From: Novosphingobium aerophilum
GTDB taxonomy: Bacteria > Pseudomonadota > Alphaproteobacteria > Sphingomonadales > Sphingomonadaceae
Direction: 5' to 3'
NCBI RefSeq assembly: GCF_014230305.1
Contig: NZ_JACLAU010000004.1
Span: forward strand, 62,001-126,000
DNA: 64,000 bases
Below the pieces are notes generated by a model. It had not been told where the DNA came from, searched no databases, and saw only the letters and a program-made list of their open reading frames with translations. Shown here one piece after another: positions 11,084-56,332 of this stretch. Position 1 is the first letter of the stretch, and each line of letters begins with the position of its first letter. The position numbers and the translations under genes are program-made.

Positions 11084-13135
11084 ATGACGATGATCGGTGG
11101 CAAGCGGCTGCTGCTGGCGGCCATGCTGCTCTCCGGCGCCACGGCGATGCCCGGTGTCTGGCCGGGCGGTCCGGCGCAGGCCCAGCCGGTGGTCCAGCCG
11201 CTGCCCCGGGTCTCCGCCAGCCAGGCGCTGAATGCGGCCCTGGCGCGGCTGGGGCGTGATCCCAAGGATCTCGATGCGCTGATCGATGCCGGCAAGGCCG
11301 CGCTGGGCATGGGCGATATCGATGCCGCGATCGGCTTCTTCGCCCGCGCCGACCAGCTTTCGCCCGACAACATGCGGGTCAAGGGCGGGCTCGCCGGGGC
11401 GCTCGTCCGCAGCGAAAACCCCTATGACGCGATCCCCCTGTTCGCCGAGGCGGACCGGGCCGGCTCGCTCGATCCGATGCTGATCGCCGATCGCGGCCTG
11501 GCCTATGACCTGGTCGGCGACAATGCCACGGCGCAGCGCTACTACCGCGACTCGCTCAACGCCCAGCCGAATGACGATACGATCCGGCGCCTCGCGCTGA
11601 GCCAGGCAATCGCCGGGGATCGCGCCGGGATGGAGCTGACCCTGGCCCCCCTGCTGCAGCGCCAGGACAAGGCGGCGTGGCGGACCCGGGCCTTCGCGCT
11701 CGCGATCCTGCAGAAGCCCGAAGAGGCGATCGCCATCGCCGATCAGACCATGCCCGACGAGATGGCGCAGAGCATCGCGCCCTATCTGCGCTACATGCCG
11801 CGCCTGACCCCGGCCCAGCAGGCGGCGGCGGCCAATTTCGGACGCTTCCCCCGGGCCGCGGAGATCGGTCGCGACGATCCCCGCGTCGCGCTTTATGCCC
11901 CGCCCAAGCGGGTGGCGGTGGCCGAGGCGCTGGTGCCGTCGGGGCAGCCGCTGGGGCGCAGCAAGCCGGCGCGGGAAGATCGGCGTGACGATCGGCGGGG
12001 CAGGGCCAAGCCTGCCGAGCCGCCCGTCCTCGCCGCTTTGGCCGCGCCGCGCAGTGCCCCGCCCGATCCCATGCCCACGCGGGAGGTTGCTCCGGCTCCG
12101 GCCCTGGCGGTCAGCACGCCGCCTCCGCCGGTGTCGTCCACCCGCAGCGGCCGGGCGAGTGCGGCGCCGCAACCCGCAACGCCCGCCGCGGCGGCCCCTC
12201 CGCCGCAAGTGGCGCTCGCCCCGTCCGCAGCTGCACCCTCCGCCCAGCGCAGTGCGACACCGGGCCAGACCGCGTCGGGCCAGACCGCGTCCGGCCAGAC
12301 GGGTCCTGGCCGGGCCGCGCTGGTGCCCGGGGGCGGGTTCGACCTGGCACGCCTCGACGCGACCCGGTCCCCTGGCTCTGCACCGGCTCAGGTTGCGCCA
12401 CCGCCTCCCGCCACGGCGATCGCCCCTGCGGCTCAAGGCCAACCGGCGCCCGTCTCGCCAGTCCCGGTCCAGCCAGCCCCGGTCCAGCCAGCCCCGGTCC
12501 AGCCAGCCCCGGTCCCGCCCGCACCGGCCACGGCGGTTCCGCCCAGCCTGGCTCTGGCCAGTCCGCCGCCTGCGGCCGGGGTGGCTCCGTCGGTGCCGGC
12601 AACCCTGGGCGAAGGGCCGCGGGTCACCCCGCCGGCGGGAACCGGTCCTGCTGGCGTCGCCGGGGCGGCGGCCAGTCCGCTTCCGGCTCCGGCGCCAACT
12701 CCGGCCGTCCCCCCGGCGCCGCGACCGCAGCCGGCGCGGCGCGCCCTGGCTGACGCCTTCGCCGACCTGGCTGTGCCCCAGGGCCCCGCAGCCCCCGCAC
12801 CCGGCGCGGTCGACGTGCGCAAGATCGCGGCCGCCAAGCCCAAGCCGGTCGAACCGCCCAAGCCGGTCCATCCCAGCCGGATCTGGGTTCAGGTCGGGAC
12901 CGGGCGCAACCTGTCGGCGCTGGCCTTCACCTGGAAGGGCCTGGTCAAGGACAACCCCGACCTGTTCCGTGGCAAGTCGGCCCTGACCACCGACTGGGGG
13001 CGCACCAACCGCCTGCTGACCGGCCCGTTCGGCACTGAGGCTCAGGCGGAAGCCTTTCTTTCCAAACTGAAAAAGGCCGGATTGGACGCCTTCCTGTGGC
13101 TCAGCCCAGCAGGCCAGGTGGTGGACGATCTCTAG
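11084..13135 (+). CDS. Secreted TPR and SPOR domain protein downstream of ftsZ
   Basis: 683 aa. N-terminal signal peptide (GGKRLLLAAMLLSGATAM..., cleavage likely around AQA), a TPR-like helical repeat region at about residues 45-230 (DALIDAGKAALGMGDIDAAIGFFARAD), a low-complexity Pro/Ala/Gln linker of about 350 residues, and a C-terminal SPOR domain from about residue 600 (RIWVQVGTGRNLSALAF ... LLTGPFGTEAQAEAFLSKLKKAG). SPOR domains bind septal peptidoglycan stripped of stem peptides, so a periplasmic division or cell-wall role is inferred. The linker contains 15-base tandem repeats near 12266-12301 and 12464-12515, which encode repeated QTASG and PVQPA. Confidence 0.85.
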   Translation: MTMIGGKRLLLAAMLLSGATAMPGVWPGGPAQAQPVVQPLPRVSASQALNAALARLGRDPKDLDALIDAGKAALGMGDIDAAIGFFARADQLSPDNMRVKGGLAGALVRSENPYDAIPLFAEADRAGSLDPMLIADRGLAYDLVGDNATAQRYYRDSLNAQPNDDTIRRLALSQAIAGDRAGMELTLAPLLQRQDKAAWRTRAFALAILQKPEEAIAIADQTMPDEMAQSIAPYLRYMPRLTPAQQAAAANFGRFPRAAEIGRDDPRVALYAPPKRVAVAEALVPSGQPLGRSKPAREDRRDDRRGRAKPAEPPVLAALAAPRSAPPDPMPTREVAPAPALAVSTPPPPVSSTRSGRASAAPQPATPAAAAPPPQVALAPSAAAPSAQRSATPGQTASGQTASGQTGPGRAALVPGGGFDLARLDATRSPGSAPAQVAPPPPATAIAPAAQGQPAPVSPVPVQPAPVQPAPVQPAPVPPAPATAVPPSLALASPPPAAGVAPSVPATLGEGPRVTPPAGTGPAGVAGAAASPLPAPAPTPAVPPAPRPQPARRALADAFADLAVPQGPAAPAPGAVDVRKIAAAKPKPVEPPKPVHPSRIWVQVGTGRNLSALAFTWKGLVKDNPDLFRGKSALTTDWGRTNRLLTGPFGTEAQAEAFLSKLKKAGLDAFLWLSPAGQVVDDL

Positions 13136-52131: not shown

Positions 52132-53316
52132 TCAGTCCTGCACGGGCAGGCAGGCGATGCCCGCCGCCGAGAGCGCCGAGCAGGCCCGGTTCGCCGCCTC
52201 ACGGCTGGCATAGCCGGTCGCGAGCAGCCGGGTCACCGCGCCAGCCTTGACGTTGGCGCGCGGGTGACCGGCGATCTCCGGACGCCCCTTGACCCGGGCC
52301 CACAGCGCATCGGCATTGCTGGCCACGCCGAAGGCACCAAGCTGAACCCGCCATGGCCCGGTTGCCGTGGCCACTGCGGCAGCCGGACGGGGCGCCGGGC
52401 GGACCACCGGGCGCGGAGCGGGCGGGGGAGCCTCGGCCATGTCACCCGGATCGGACGGTGCAGGTGCCGCCGGCGGCGTCTCGGCCTGGGCCAGACCGAA
52501 GGGCGGACGTGGCGCCGGGAGCGGGGCAGGGAGTGGCGCAGGCGGAAGCCCGGTCGGCACGGCCCCTGTCGACGGCAAGCCGGCCGTCGCCACCTGGGCC
52601 GGGCGGGGGGGCACGACCGGCCTGGCCGGGGCGGGCGGGCTGCCGCGGGGGGGCGAGGCCGGCGCGGCGGAAGCGGGCGCGGCAGGCGGGACGATCCGGC
52701 TGCCCAGGTCGGCGGCGGCCAATTGATTGCGCCGGTTGGTCTCGGCCTCCTCGCCCAGCTTGGCCGCCAGCGAGGCGGCGGCCTGCCGCTGGGCGAGCGG
52801 GATGTGCTGGTCCATCTGGGTGATCGCCGGCGCGGCCTGGGGCAGGCCCGCGCTCTGGGCCAGGGTCATCAGCGCATAGGCCCGGACCCAGTCCTTCGGT
52901 GCCAGATCGCCATTGAAGTGGGCAATGCCCAGCAGGTACTGTGCCCGCGGATCGCCGCGGTCCGCCGCCGAGCGGATATAGGGCATGGCGGCGGCACGCT
53001 CGCCGCGATCGAACATCATGAGGCCATAGAAATCGCCGGCCTCGAGGTGTCCCTGGGCGGAGGCCTTGCCGAACAGCATTTCGGCCTTGGCCAGATCGCG
53101 CGTTACGCCCCGGCCAAGGCGGTAGGCCTGGGCAAGGCGGAACTGGGCGTCGGGGTCGCCCTGCGCGGCGGGACCCTCCCATTCGCGAACCGCTGCGGCA
53201 TAGTCACCTCGGTTCCACGCATCTTCGCCAGTTTTGACATCGGCCATGGCCGGCACCGCCACGATGAGCGCCACGGCGGCGACCGAACAAAGACCCAGCG
53301 ATCGACCGAAAAGCAT
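52132..53316 (-). CDS. Exported Sel1-repeat and SPOR domain protein
   Basis: 394 aa. Signal peptide (GRSLGLCSVAAVALIVAVPAMA), Sel1/TPR-like repeats (about residues 30-160; WEGPAAQGDPDAQFRLAQAYRLG, ADRGDPRAQYLLGIAHFNGD), a Pro/Ala linker, and a C-terminal SPOR domain (about 325-394; GPWRVQLGAFGVASNADALW). The Sel1-SPOR layout is common in sphingomonads and points to septal cell-wall binding and scaffolding. It is divergent from parA; the 199-base gap 53317-53515 is presumed to carry both promoters. It precedes the DUF418 gene on the same strand. Confidence 0.88.
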   Translation of the reverse strand: MLFGRSLGLCSVAAVALIVAVPAMADVKTGEDAWNRGDYAAAVREWEGPAAQGDPDAQFRLAQAYRLGRGVTRDLAKAEMLFGKASAQGHLEAGDFYGLMMFDRGERAAAMPYIRSAADRGDPRAQYLLGIAHFNGDLAPKDWVRAYALMTLAQSAGLPQAAPAITQMDQHIPLAQRQAAASLAAKLGEEAETNRRNQLAAADLGSRIVPPAAPASAAPASPPRGSPPAPARPVVPPRPAQVATAGLPSTGAVPTGLPPAPLPAPLPAPRPPFGLAQAETPPAAPAPSDPGDMAEAPPPAPRPVVRPAPRPAAAVATATGPWRVQLGAFGVASNADALWARVKGRPEIAGHPRANVKAGAVTRLLATGYASREAANRACSALSAAGIACLPVQD

Positions 53317-53515
53317 TTCTGTTTCCCCACGCCCAACCGGCTCGCGCCGAGTACTGCCACAACCGCGGGACTCGTGGCAAAGACTTTGTCCTTACTGCCA
53401 ATCTTCCTTTACACCCGCTTTTCCCGCCCCCCGCCAGTTAACCCGATCTTAGGGGTGCGCGTGGTTTGTTGCCCCGGATTTGGCAGATTAGCCGGTATTC
53501 CGGGGGACTTAGACC

Positions 53516-54235
53516 GTGCGTGTATTGGCTCTGGCTTCGCAGAAGGGTGGATCGGGCAAGACCACCTTGTCCGGCCATCTCGCCGTGCAGGCCCAGCGGG
53601 CCGGGGCGGGGCCGGTGGTGCTGATCGACATCGACCCGCAAGGTTCGCTGGCCGACTGGTGGAACGAGCGCGAGGCCGACATGCCGGCGTTCGCCCAGAC
53701 CACCGTGGCGCGGCTCGCGGCCGATCTCCAGGTGCTGCGCCAGCAGGGCTTCAAGCTGGCCGTCATCGATACCCCGCCGGCGATCACCATGGCCATCCAG
53801 TCGGTCATCGCGGTCGCCGAACTGGTCGTCGTGCCGACCCGGCCGAGCCCGCATGACCTGCGCGCGGTCGGGGCCACGGTCGATCTGTGCGAGCGCGCCG
53901 GCAAGCCACTGATCTTCGTGGTCAACGCGGCCACCCCGAAGGCGCGGATCACCAGCGAGGCGGCCATCGCGCTCTCGCAGCACGGCACTGTCGCCCCGAT
54001 CACCCTGCACCAGCGCACCGATTTCGCCGCGTCGATGATCGACGGACGCACCGTGATGGAGGTGGATCCCACCGGCCGCTCCGCGATGGAGGTTGCCGCG
54101 CTGTGGAACTACGTGGCCGACCGGCTCGAGAAGAACTTCCGTCGCACCGTTTTCGCGGCGCCGGCGGCAACGCCGGGTCATGCCGCGGTGCATCGTCCGG
54201 TCGGCGGCTTCGGCCGCCGCGTCGCCGGTTCGTGA
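53516..54235 (+). CDS. ParA family ATPase, orphan type
   Basis: 239 aa from GTG 53516. Deviant Walker A ASQKGGSGKTTLSGHL at residues 7-22, Walker A' VLIDIDPQGSLADWW, Walker B VIDTPP and the P-x-x-R-P-S region VVVPTRPSPHDLRAV. No ParB or parS repeats lie nearby; the next gene is a ribbon-helix-helix candidate. ParA-type ATPases position DNA or protein cargo. The C-terminal 25 residues are an Ala/Pro-rich tail. The chromosomal ParA is expected at the origin, so this is a second, probably dedicated positioning ATPase. Confidence 0.88.
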   Translation: MRVLALASQKGGSGKTTLSGHLAVQAQRAGAGPVVLIDIDPQGSLADWWNEREADMPAFAQTTVARLAADLQVLRQQGFKLAVIDTPPAITMAIQSVIAVAELVVVPTRPSPHDLRAVGATVDLCERAGKPLIFVVNAATPKARITSEAAIALSQHGTVAPITLHQRTDFAASMIDGRTVMEVDPTGRSAMEVAALWNYVADRLEKNFRRTVFAAPAATPGHAAVHRPVGGFGRRVAGS

Positions 54236-54248
54236 GGGAGCGCCGCCG

Positions 54249-54863
54249 ATGACCAGCTCCCGCGCCTTCGCCTCGCTGTCCTCCGCGCTGCTCGCCCGCA
54301 AGGGTGGTGCGCGCCCCGCCATGCGCTCGGCCCTGCATGACCCGGCCCATGATTCGGCCGAAGCGCCCCGCCACGATCCGCTCAGCGATCTCGGCTGGAA
54401 CGACATGGGTTTCGACGTGGCGCCGGCATCGGTCCAGCCTGCTCCGGCCCCTGCCGACATGACCGCTCCGCTGGCCGTGGTGGTGTTTGAGCCGATGCAG
54501 GACCCCCTGCCGGACGCTGCGGCGCCGGCCCAACCGCCGGCCCAACTGCTCGCCTCCAAGCCGGCCCCGGCCGAGGTGGTGCCCCTCCTGCGCGAGGCGC
54601 CCGCCGCGCCGTCCGCCCGGTCCGCAGCCGCGCGACCGGCCTCGCTCGGCGAGATCGGCACCCGCGCGATCACCCGACGGACCCGCACCGCGGCCTTCAC
54701 GCTGCGGCTGGATCCGGACCGCCACTATCGCCTGCGGGTCGCCTGTGCGCTGCAGGCGCGCAGTGCCCAGTCGCTGGTGACCGAAGCCGTCGATCGTTTT
54801 CTCGACCAACAGCCCGACCTCAACCCGCTGGCCGCCGTTGGCGGTGCCCAGCGGATCGCCTGA
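54249..54863 (+). CDS. Hypothetical protein with C-terminal ribbon-helix-helix-like domain
   Basis: 204 aa from ATG 54249, 13 bases after the ParA gene. A low-complexity Ala/Pro/Asp first half (residues 1-130) is followed by RTAAFTLRLDPDRHYRLRV, CALQARSAQSLVTEAVDRFLDQQP (about 145-190), which has the beta-strand/helix/helix pattern of RHH proteins such as CopG/ParG. That would make it a DNA-binding or adaptor partner of the ParA protein. The assignment is by pattern, not by a named family. The SPOR gene follows 17 bases later. Confidence 0.65.
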   Translation: MTSSRAFASLSSALLARKGGARPAMRSALHDPAHDSAEAPRHDPLSDLGWNDMGFDVAPASVQPAPAPADMTAPLAVVVFEPMQDPLPDAAAPAQPPAQLLASKPAPAEVVPLLREAPAAPSARSAAARPASLGEIGTRAITRRTRTAAFTLRLDPDRHYRLRVACALQARSAQSLVTEAVDRFLDQQPDLNPLAAVGGAQRIA

Positions 54864-54880
54864 CCTGACAGGACCTTGCC

Positions 54881-56248
54881 ATGAACACCTCGCGCGAATT
54901 CCCTGGTCCGTTGCTGAGCCGCGCTGCGGCAGCGGTGAGCATTGCGGCCTCGCTGTCGATCCTGGGCGGTTGCGCCGGTTCGGCATCGCCGCGTTCGGCC
55001 TCGGCCGAGCCGGCGGCTTCGGTCCGCACCGCGGATCGCGCTCTGGCCAAGGCCGAACAGGCCGTGCAGCGGGCGCCGCAGGATGCCGCCGCACGCGCCG
55101 CCCTGGCCCAGGCCTACCTCGCGGCCGGGCGTTTCCAGTCGGCTGCGACGACCTTCGATGATGCGATGTCGCTGGGCGACAACAGCGCGCGCACCGCGCT
55201 TGGCCTGGCGCTGGCGCAGATCGGCCTCGGCCGCCAGCGCGAGGCCGTCGCCCTGCTGGACGACTGGCGCGCCGAAATTCCGGCGAGCGACCTGGGCCTC
55301 GCCCTCGCTCTGGCGGGGGAACCCGCGCGCGGCGTGGCGATCCTCAGCGACGCCGCCCGCTCGGGCGAGAGCACGCCCAAGCTGCGCCAGAACCTGGCCT
55401 ATGCCTATGCCCTGTCCGGCCGCTGGACCGAGGCGCGCGTCATGGCCGCGCAGGACCTGCCCGCGGCCGAACTGGACCGCCGCATGGCGATCTGGGCGCT
55501 CTCCGCGCTGCCGGACCGGACCCAGGAACGCGTTGCCGGCCTGATCGGCGCACCGCTGCGCAGCGATCCCGGCCAGCCGGCCGCGCTGGCGCTCCGCAGC
55601 GATCCCGGCCAGCCGGCCGCGCTGGCGCTCCGCAGCGATCCGGTGGGCGAGCAGCTTGCCGCCCAGTCCGCCCGTCCGCTGCCGGCCGCGCCGGCTCCGG
55701 TCGCCGCTACGGCTCTTGCCCAGGCCGGTGACGAACTGCCCGCCACCCCCGCCACTGCGGAATCGGTGGCCGTGACCCAGAACCTGGCGGCCCAGACCGA
55801 TCAGCCGGCGGCCGAACCCGCAGGCAAGGCCCTGCCGCGCCCCAGCGTCGCCTCGGCCTTTGCCCGGCTCACCCCCAAGCCCGCACGCTCGGCGCGCCCG
55901 GCCCTGATGGCGGCCGCAGCGGTCAGCGCCGTGCGCGGCACCCACCTGGTCCAACTGGGCGCCTTCTCCAGCAAGCAGGGCGCGCGGCGCGCCTGGGGCA
56001 TCTTCGTCCAGCGCACACCGCACCTTGCCAGCTTCCGGATGACGATCACCCAGGCCAATGTGCGCGGCAAGCAGCTGTGGCGTGTGGCGGCTGCCGGGCT
56101 TAACGGTTCGGGCGCGGCCAGCGGGCTCTGTTCGCAGGTCAAGTCCGGCGGAGGGGCCTGCTTCGCCTATGCCACGCCGCTGCGCCCCACCGCCGTGCCG
56201 GTGTTGCCCGGTCGCGACCTATCGGGCCCGCAGCGCGCGCGGCGTTAA
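54881..56248 (+). CDS. TPR lipoprotein with C-terminal SPOR domain
   Basis: 455 aa. Signal peptide with lipobox LGGCAG (Cys about residue 31), TPR-like helices (about residues 45-220; ADRALAKAEQAVQRAPQDAAARAALAQAYLAAGRFQSAATTFDDAM), a variable Ala/Pro-rich linker including two perfect 36-base tandem repeats, and a SPOR domain (about 345-430; GTHLVQLGAFSSKQGARRAWGIFVQRTPHLA). It should be an outer-membrane or periplasmic peptidoglycan-binding protein. It is the third gene of the ParA cassette and ends at a clear terminator. Confidence 0.88.
   Translation: MNTSREFPGPLLSRAAAAVSIAASLSILGGCAGSASPRSASAEPAASVRTADRALAKAEQAVQRAPQDAAARAALAQAYLAAGRFQSAATTFDDAMSLGDNSARTALGLALAQIGLGRQREAVALLDDWRAEIPASDLGLALALAGEPARGVAILSDAARSGESTPKLRQNLAYAYALSGRWTEARVMAAQDLPAAELDRRMAIWALSALPDRTQERVAGLIGAPLRSDPGQPAALALRSDPGQPAALALRSDPVGEQLAAQSARPLPAAPAPVAATALAQAGDELPATPATAESVAVTQNLAAQTDQPAAEPAGKALPRPSVASAFARLTPKPARSARPALMAAAAVSAVRGTHLVQLGAFSSKQGARRAWGIFVQRTPHLASFRMTITQANVRGKQLWRVAAAGLNGSGAASGLCSQVKSGGGACFAYATPLRPTAVPVLPGRDLSGPQRARR
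55559..55641 (+). repeat. 36-base coding tandem repeat
   Basis: Two identical 36-base copies (55559-55594 and 55595-55630) and an 11-base partial third, encoding RSDPGQPAALAL twice. In frame, in the linker of the SPOR lipoprotein; copy number probably varies between strains. Confidence 0.95.
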
Positions 56249-56302
56249 CGCTTCGACAGGATTTGACGGTCTATACCCGGCCCATCGACCAACCTTGTTC
56301 AG

Positions 56303-56332
56303 CCCCTCCGACATCCCTCGGAGGGGTTTTTT
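56303..56332 (+). terminator. Rho-independent terminator of the ParA-RHH-SPOR unit
   Basis: CCCCTCCGA (56303-56311), loop CATCCC, TCGGAGGGG (56318-56326), then six T. Strong. Confidence 0.92.

Follow-up and report, generated by a model that had tools for sequence, protein, structure and literature searches.

The DNA examined here is a 64,000-nucleotide stretch of Novosphingobium aerophilum (contig NZ_JACLAU010000004.1, positions 62,001 to 126,000), referred to below as the window, in which positions are counted from its first letter. It carries a cluster of three genes that encode a ParA-type ATPase, a 204-residue partner protein with a predicted ribbon-helix-helix (RHH) C-terminus, and a lipoprotein with tetratricopeptide repeats (TPR) and a SPOR domain. 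A sequence-only reading of this DNA had placed the three genes in tight succession before a shared terminator, and the open reading frame positions confirmed this arrangement, with 13 bases between the ParA and partner genes and 17 bases between the partner and TPR-SPOR genes. A terminator-like hairpin does follow the third gene, and the hairpin scan of the window gave 2 overlapping matches, with 1.2 expected by chance. A second SPOR gene, divergent from the cluster, was overlooked in that first reading. The features are as follows:

52132..53316, minus strand: Sel1-repeat and SPOR protein, N-terminus signal-peptide-like, encoded divergently to the operon (SPOR PF05036 55.8 bits, cut-off 21; Sel1 46.7 bits)
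53438..53452, plus strand: CtrA-box-like element TTAACCCGATCTTAG, TTAA-N7-TTAA with one mismatch (upstream-box scan)
53516..54235, plus strand: ParA-type ATPase, 239 residues, GTG start, KGGSGKTT, C-terminal FGRR (open reading frame, family scores)
54249..54863, plus strand: 204-residue partner with a basic N-terminal tail, a long low-confidence Ala/Pro linker and a C-terminal RHH domain
54270..54317, plus strand: N-terminal tail of the partner, residues 8-23, ASLSSALLARKGGARP, motif LLARKGxAxP, predicted ParA-contacting peptide
54684..54818, plus strand: RHH domain of the partner, about residues 146-190 (ParG profile match, structure model, VIA-align)
54881..56248, plus strand: TPR-SPOR lipoprotein, 455 residues (Pfam TPR_19, SPOR)
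55937..56167, plus strand: SPOR domain of the lipoprotein (PF05036 31.3 bits, cut-off 21)
56301..56328, plus strand: intrinsic-terminator-like hairpin, 11 pairs (hairpin scan)

The window ParA matches Pfam AAA_31 (51.2 bits, cut-off 27), carries the deviant Walker A motif of ParA/MinD proteins (KGGSGKTT, residues 10-17), and is matched by the solved ParA and ParF chains 5u1g and 4dzz (E 2.4e-15 each). The NCBIfam model NF041546, 'ParA family partition ATPase', aligned to residues 3-198 with 164.9 bits, which is under its curated cut-off of 180. As in type Ib partition systems, the ATPase is short and lacks an N-terminal helix-turn-helix (the P-loop starts at residue 10 of 239), and an RHH partner gene lies directly 3' of it. 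The protein was also considered as a MipZ and rejected as such: the MipZ profile (PF09140) scored 30.6 bits over a cut-off of 20.7, but aligned at profile positions 2-53 of 262 alone, the P-loop region, and the full MipZ of this genome is a separate gene on contig C62 (394.6 bits). ParB_N matches were found on C32, C39, C42, C72 and C109, with none on the window contig, and a canonical pair is encoded elsewhere (ParA C32:26784-27302, ParB_N C32:27737-28015); because the genome has both this pair and a full MipZ, the window ParA is an additional ParA. The earlier statement that no ParB is present is therefore correct in that no ParB_N-type ParB adjoins the gene, but an RHH partner of the kind that type Ib ParA proteins use is itself present. 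Full-length orthologs share 85-91% identity with the ATPase within the genus and 62-77% across the order, and 34 of 289 class genomes outside the window's family carry a ParA of at least 57% identity. The C-terminal motif FG[RKE][RKQ] (FGRR in the window, 54209-54220) is present at 29/29 genus loci, 16/17 order loci and 38/38 named Sphingomonadales loci, and at none of 24 ParAs of the type with a transmembrane SPOR (TM-SPOR) partner or 7 plasmid ParAs. A tie between FGRR and the RHH partner was considered and rejected, as the motif occurs at 4/4 RHH-less, 11/26 class RHH-type and 0/4 Kiloniellaceae-type loci.

The first reading proposed an RHH-like fold at the C-terminus of the 204-residue protein and suggested a structural comparison with RHH and ParG folds, and the comparison bears it out. 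Alone, the protein scored 18.4 bits for RHH, below the Pfam cut-off of 27, and resembled ParG weakly (E 0.22 in Pfam, 0.42 in the PDB). A profile of 33 orthologs had ParG as its best PDB match (1p94, E 2.3e-4), and omega and CopG were among the RHH proteins ranked after it; scanned one by one, 8 of the 33 partners matched RHH_10 and 7 matched Antitox_RHH (E <= 0.01). Single-sequence folding was unusable, with a mean predicted local distance difference test (pLDDT) score of 46.7, and was superseded by an AlphaFold model from 39 aligned sequences. In this model residues 150-190 reach a pLDDT of about 95, confidence is low before residue 140, and helices are placed at 156-169, 173-187 and 191-201, giving the C-terminus the beta-alpha-alpha fold of RHH/CopG proteins. 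VIA-align with residues 145-204 returned mostly RHH proteins (PutA, CopASO, CopG, Arc and ParB of pCXC100), with Z up to 5.8 for PutA and CopASO; ParG and omega were not in that list, which does not exclude them. Foldseek with the model gave no match at E <= 0.001, and the non-significant matches were mostly RHH proteins. Because the ortholog profile, the aligned model and VIA-align agree, we read the protein as a tail, a long linker and an RHH domain. A second short motif, DLGWNDMG, lies in the linker (residues 47-54, 54387-54410) and was seen in most Sphingomonadales partners of alignment A5, but in alignment A3 in the three family-level rows only.

The partner proteins share an N-terminal motif, SLTxxLL(A/V)RKGxAxP. 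Invariance of its K and G is partly by construction, because the 33 rows of A3, like the set used to type named-locus partners, were picked by a tail expression needing [KR][GS] or [KR]G; among those left out of A3, as tail or open reading frame did not fit, were L142, L143, L148, L149, L150, L153, L158, L162 and L163. Searched on DNA with the strict expression and no open reading frame calling, the tail was found within 450 nucleotides after ParA at 17/17 order loci, 24/29 genus loci (own included), 74/78 named loci (two more too short) and 28/39 class loci (one more too short). It followed none of 18 ParA genes of 30-40% identity (two more too short), and random windows matched in 40 of 1600 cases. 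Across 61 whole genomes, own included, 41 had a match to the tail DNA pattern, with 42 sites in all, and at 40 of these sites ParA is adjacent; the window genome has a single site, and the reversed control pattern matched three times. Ile variants, such as the one in G046, escape the tail pattern. Of the sites away from an intact ParA, one lies elsewhere (G019:C18) and one beside a ParA remnant in G012. A role of the tail as a mark of many client proteins was thus not borne out among the window's relatives. At the G012 locus (L297, G012:C201) the last 29 ParA residues alone precede the tail-RHH partner, with a der-like gene close upstream and no convincing Sel1-SPOR match on the contig. In the literature, a disordered N-terminus with positive charge has generally been demonstrated or proposed to be the part by which partners of ParA/MinD ATPases touch the ATPase (PMC10241942), the first 20 residues of McdB are described as necessary and sufficient (PMC12204374, preprint), and ParG as combining an RHH fold with flexible tails bearing arginine-finger-like motifs (PMC7308502). 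By analogy, the tail of the window partner would act on its ParA as these N-termini do.

Homologs of the pair are also found on plasmids. ParA matched 141 plasmid records at E <= 1e-30, with identities of 57.4-67.5% among the 30 matches listed. In seven plasmid regions, a strict tail follows ParA in five and a variant in L178; L180 was too short for the count, and its next gene bears the tail. A rep gene is annotated nearby in three (L175, L176 and L177). The RHH assignment of the seven small plasmid proteins rests on a profile built from chromosomal partners, which, searched among the seven, gave E 4e-14 to 3e-5 for six and 0.039 for L179; in Pfam, RHH_10 was over its cut-off in L177 (29.8 bits) and below it in L179 (19.2), and no RHH match was returned for L175 and L176. 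A quick ParA tree, with weak support and long-branch warnings, placed three of six plasmid sequences basally and three slightly further in. Because plasmid kin pair ParA with tail-bearing RHH-like proteins, the chromosomal pair is of the plasmid type Ib (ParF/ParG) kind.

Both SPOR proteins of the cluster score above the Pfam cut-off for that domain, and the TPR-SPOR protein in addition matches TPR_19 (39.9 bits, cut-off 25) and has a lipobox-like LGGC ending at residue 31, in keeping with its first description as a TPR-SPOR lipoprotein. Among 21 TPR proteins scanned, all matched TPR and 20 matched SPOR (E <= 0.01). The genome (119 contigs, 4.19 Mb) holds five SPOR matches above the cut-off, of which two flank the window ParA. 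A third belongs to a 683-residue protein elsewhere in the window (11084-13135, plus strand; SPOR at about 12875-13093, TPR-like repeats by eye). The linker of the TPR-SPOR protein contains a short in-frame tandem repeat, LRSDPGQPAALA, in two copies (55556-55627). SPOR proteins such as FtsN are reported to bind naked peptidoglycan at the division site (PMC10336132).

Gene order was then compared across the relatives, in which scattering of the genes would have spoken against a unit. In the sample of 61 genomes, ParA was matched at E <= 1e-10 in 51, and at the same locus in 49; at two of these loci the contig breaks off (G001, G038), and one is truncated (G016). A co-oriented TPR-SPOR gene is found no more than 2.5 kb downstream at 47 of the 49 ParA loci, a count that includes G016, where ParA and TPR-SPOR are fused, and the other two are the contig-end cases. 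At all 17 order-level loci a gene for a tail-bearing partner comes after ParA and a TPR gene comes later, so within the order the genes stay together in the relatives. The Sel1-SPOR homolog is divergent upstream of ParA at 12 of the 17 order loci; three others (L079, L081, L082) have it within the cluster, before the TPR gene, and it was not found at L076 and L080. The fusion in G016 (L296, G016:C21) joins the first part of ParA in frame to TPR-SPOR, and possibly reflects a deletion, an assembly effect or a true fusion. At four loci without an RHH gene (L291, L292, L293 and L295) ParA is followed by TPR-SPOR; 2-21 nucleotides separate the two at L291, L292 and L295, and at L293 the open reading frame start is ambiguous. 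Outside the order, three Kiloniellaceae loci (L225, L233, L241) and one Kiloniellales locus with a variant tail (L264) have an RHH-type ParA operon with a TPR-SPOR gene about 1.25-1.35 kb downstream; the TPR match is clear in all four of these proteins, and SPOR reaches 34.6 bits in L264 and stays below the Pfam cut-off in the other three (15.5-19.2 bits). An extra gene lies between the RHH partner and TPR-SPOR at L225, L233 and L241, and at L233 its product matches PAS_5 below threshold (16.3 bits, cut-off 22).

At six class-level loci (L138, L144, L147, L152, L161, L166) the gene after ParA encodes a different kind of partner, in which the same tail precedes a single membrane helix and SPOR forms the C-terminus (SPOR in 6/6). 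Hydropathy maxima are 1.96-2.71 in these six proteins versus at most 1.06 in 33 RHH-type proteins. Three of the TM-SPOR genomes (G183, G069 and G268) carry an RHH-type copy in addition (L146, L160 and L153); for L153 the tail is a variant, and Pfam returned no RHH match. At L167, two tandem partner-like proteins follow one ParA, the second with a variant tail and a C-terminal stretch resembling a membrane helix. Further loci came from a set of 80 named loci. These are the best 80 of 584 confirmed relatives, and the scan behind them was headed by a TM-SPOR-type ParA. Partners in this set were typed as SPOR in 15 cases (hydropathy 1.8-2.8; Parvibaculum, Rhodobiaceae, Kiloniellaceae and others), as RHH in 38 (at most 1.3) and as unclear in three. 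Where at least 1.5 kb of downstream sequence was available (73 loci), 39 encoded SPOR in a gene next to the partner position or downstream of it, 19 had SPOR in the first gene, among them the RHH-less TPR-SPOR case L281, nine had RHH without SPOR and six had neither, proportions that are not frequencies because the sample is biased towards TM-SPOR-like ParA loci. A phylum search with the TM-SPOR alignment returned almost only tail-less SPOR stretches and was not used for counting. The ParA tree requires two label changes for the TM-SPOR ParAs, which may have a single origin.

Upstream of ParA, a TTAA-N7-TTAA box (at most one mismatch, within 300 nucleotides) was present at 32/32 family-level loci, own included (first-order Markov control mean 2.2, maximum 7), a count that is inflated because these loci are related. 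The same box was found at 16/17 order loci (first-order Markov control mean 6.2, maximum 11) and 15/34 class loci (mononucleotide shuffles mean 4.35, maximum 9). TTAA-N7-TTAA is the published CtrA consensus (PMC9437464), and in Sphingomonas melonis loss of CtrA is described as harmless to growth, yet CtrA influences replication (PMC8116508). From the match to this consensus, the cluster is possibly under CtrA-like control. A longer version of the element is single-copy in four of five genomes, and none was found within three mismatches in the fifth; because it is mostly single-copy, a candidate operator for the RHH protein is an alternative to a CtrA box.

The cluster is a real conserved unit, and a variant of ParA partition and positioning systems rather than a new kind. 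Our interpretation, for which we see about as much reason to believe as to doubt, is that a chromosome-domesticated type Ib pair, a ParF-like ParA and a ParG-like RHH protein, works with SPOR proteins and thereby couples the position or segregation of the nucleoid to the septal envelope. ATP-bound ParA dimers would sit on the nucleoid, and the partner's basic tail, LLARKGxAxP, would dock at the ParA dimer and trigger ATP hydrolysis; such triggering is reported for ParG, and binding and release from DNA for McdB. The C-terminal module of the partner would set the address. In the window form the RHH domain would address DNA, the operon's own promoter or both, and the TPR-SPOR lipoprotein and the divergent Sel1-SPOR protein would act in the periplasm at denuded septal glycan. 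In Parvibaculum-type bacteria, where tail, membrane helix and SPOR are on one protein, the address would be septal glycan through SPOR. A bolder formulation, which we put forward tentatively as possible rather than probable, is a trans-envelope ParA system in which a nucleoid ATPase reads a common tail on exchangeable partners; one class of these would be a membrane SPOR sensor of denuded septal peptidoglycan that mechanically couples chromosome position and septal wall synthesis, with the RHH and TPR-SPOR proteins of the window as its split form.

Several observations weigh against this interpretation. In the window form the RHH protein connects to the periplasmic SPOR proteins genetically only, there being no known membrane-spanning link, and a repeat-array centromere was not found upstream (53317-53520). 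Four genomes of the same genus (G002, G025, G029, G032) have no RHH gene next to ParA and no confident RHH partner elsewhere (best E 0.0096), and ParA, intact including its C-terminal FGRR, is still adjacent to TPR-SPOR; because these relatives keep both, whatever maintains ParA can do without the RHH partner. G014 retains the RHH domain behind a degenerate tail, and TPR-SPOR occurs without a ParA ortholog in G030, G037, G041 and G044. Furthermore, the class sample, a part of the class matches comprising 40 loci, leaves 31 evaluable loci after removal of three from the window's family, five with ParA of at most 50% identity and one lacking downstream sequence, and 25 of these 31 have no SPOR gene in the stretch available (counted outside the window's family, SPOR is present at 6/37 loci). 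Because of these loci, members of this ParA family are not always accompanied by SPOR. The first reading had suggested that the unit places an envelope structure or coordinates segregation with the cell wall, and this stands in part: the tail-TM-SPOR partners support a link to the septal wall, but function is deduced from sequence, RHH is lost in the four genomes and most class loci lack SPOR.

The same class loci, together with the resemblance of the plasmid homologs to partition pairs and the shared regulation suggested by the conserved upstream element, would suit a role on DNA only, in which ParA and the RHH protein segregate a chromosomal site or act as a regulator with its ATPase, and in which the SPOR genes have no more in common with them than a transcript timed by the cell cycle. 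We regard this as unlikely, though a serious competitor, since the tail is present on TM-SPOR partners, ParA and TPR-SPOR stay together after RHH loss, and TPR-SPOR accompanies the pair in Kiloniellaceae too. It is improbable that the unit positions an envelope machine, for example a Tad/Flp pilus, with ParA in a TadZ/CpaE-like role. A TPR lipoprotein does adjoin ParA, and we take it to resemble TadD in layout and liken the ParA to TadZ; however, no tad gene was recognised by eye, without a family scan, among the listed neighbours, and the SPOR domain points to the septal wall. That the pair is a functionless relic of an integrated plasmid partition pair, beside which TPR-SPOR acts independently, is very improbable, for despite its kinship to plasmid pairs and a ParA that is broken or cut in G012 and G016, full-length orthologs at the identities given above persist and gene order, tail and upstream box are conserved.

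Coupling of the type Ib pair to septal SPOR proteins would, if true, provide a physical route from the nucleoid to the septal cell wall that is separate from MipZ and ParABS, and the replacement of RHH by TM-SPOR behind a common tail would reveal how partition systems are redirected from DNA to the envelope. Many ParA/MinD ATPases have been termed 'orphans', with partner unknown (PMC10241942); here a partner and a short contact peptide are predicted for an alphaproteobacterial ParA and, for part of the range of this ParA, a class of cargo as well. A search of open-licence PMC text found no paper on a ParA/RHH and SPOR combination, in agreement with the initial view that no system of exactly this composition is described, although the ParA/RHH half has a type Ib precedent in ParF/ParG.

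The window pair shares with ParF-ParG of TP228 a small ParA without an N-terminal helix-turn-helix, an RHH partner just downstream and a flexible N-terminal tail on that partner (PMC7308502). It differs in being chromosomal and conserved across the order, in its long Ala/Pro linker and in having no repeat-array centromere that could be seen; in addition, its operon includes a SPOR protein, and some relatives have a TM-SPOR protein instead of the RHH protein. Another type Ib plasmid partition system is delta-omega of pSM19035. Like McdA-McdB and other ParA/MinD cargo positioners, the cluster combines a ParA ATPase with a partner bearing a short basic N-terminal address peptide (PMC10241942, PMC12204374), whereas the tail motif and partners differ and the predicted cargo is septal-envelope SPOR proteins. 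MipZ and the canonical ParABS of alphaproteobacteria likewise link the chromosome to division through the ParA superfamily, but are separate genes in the window genome (MipZ on C62, ParA-ParB on C32). SPOR proteins of the FtsN/DamX/DedD type have a C-terminal SPOR domain and one transmembrane helix. The variant TM-SPOR partner has this same layout; unlike them, its cytoplasmic part starts with the ParA-partner tail, and it is encoded right after parA.

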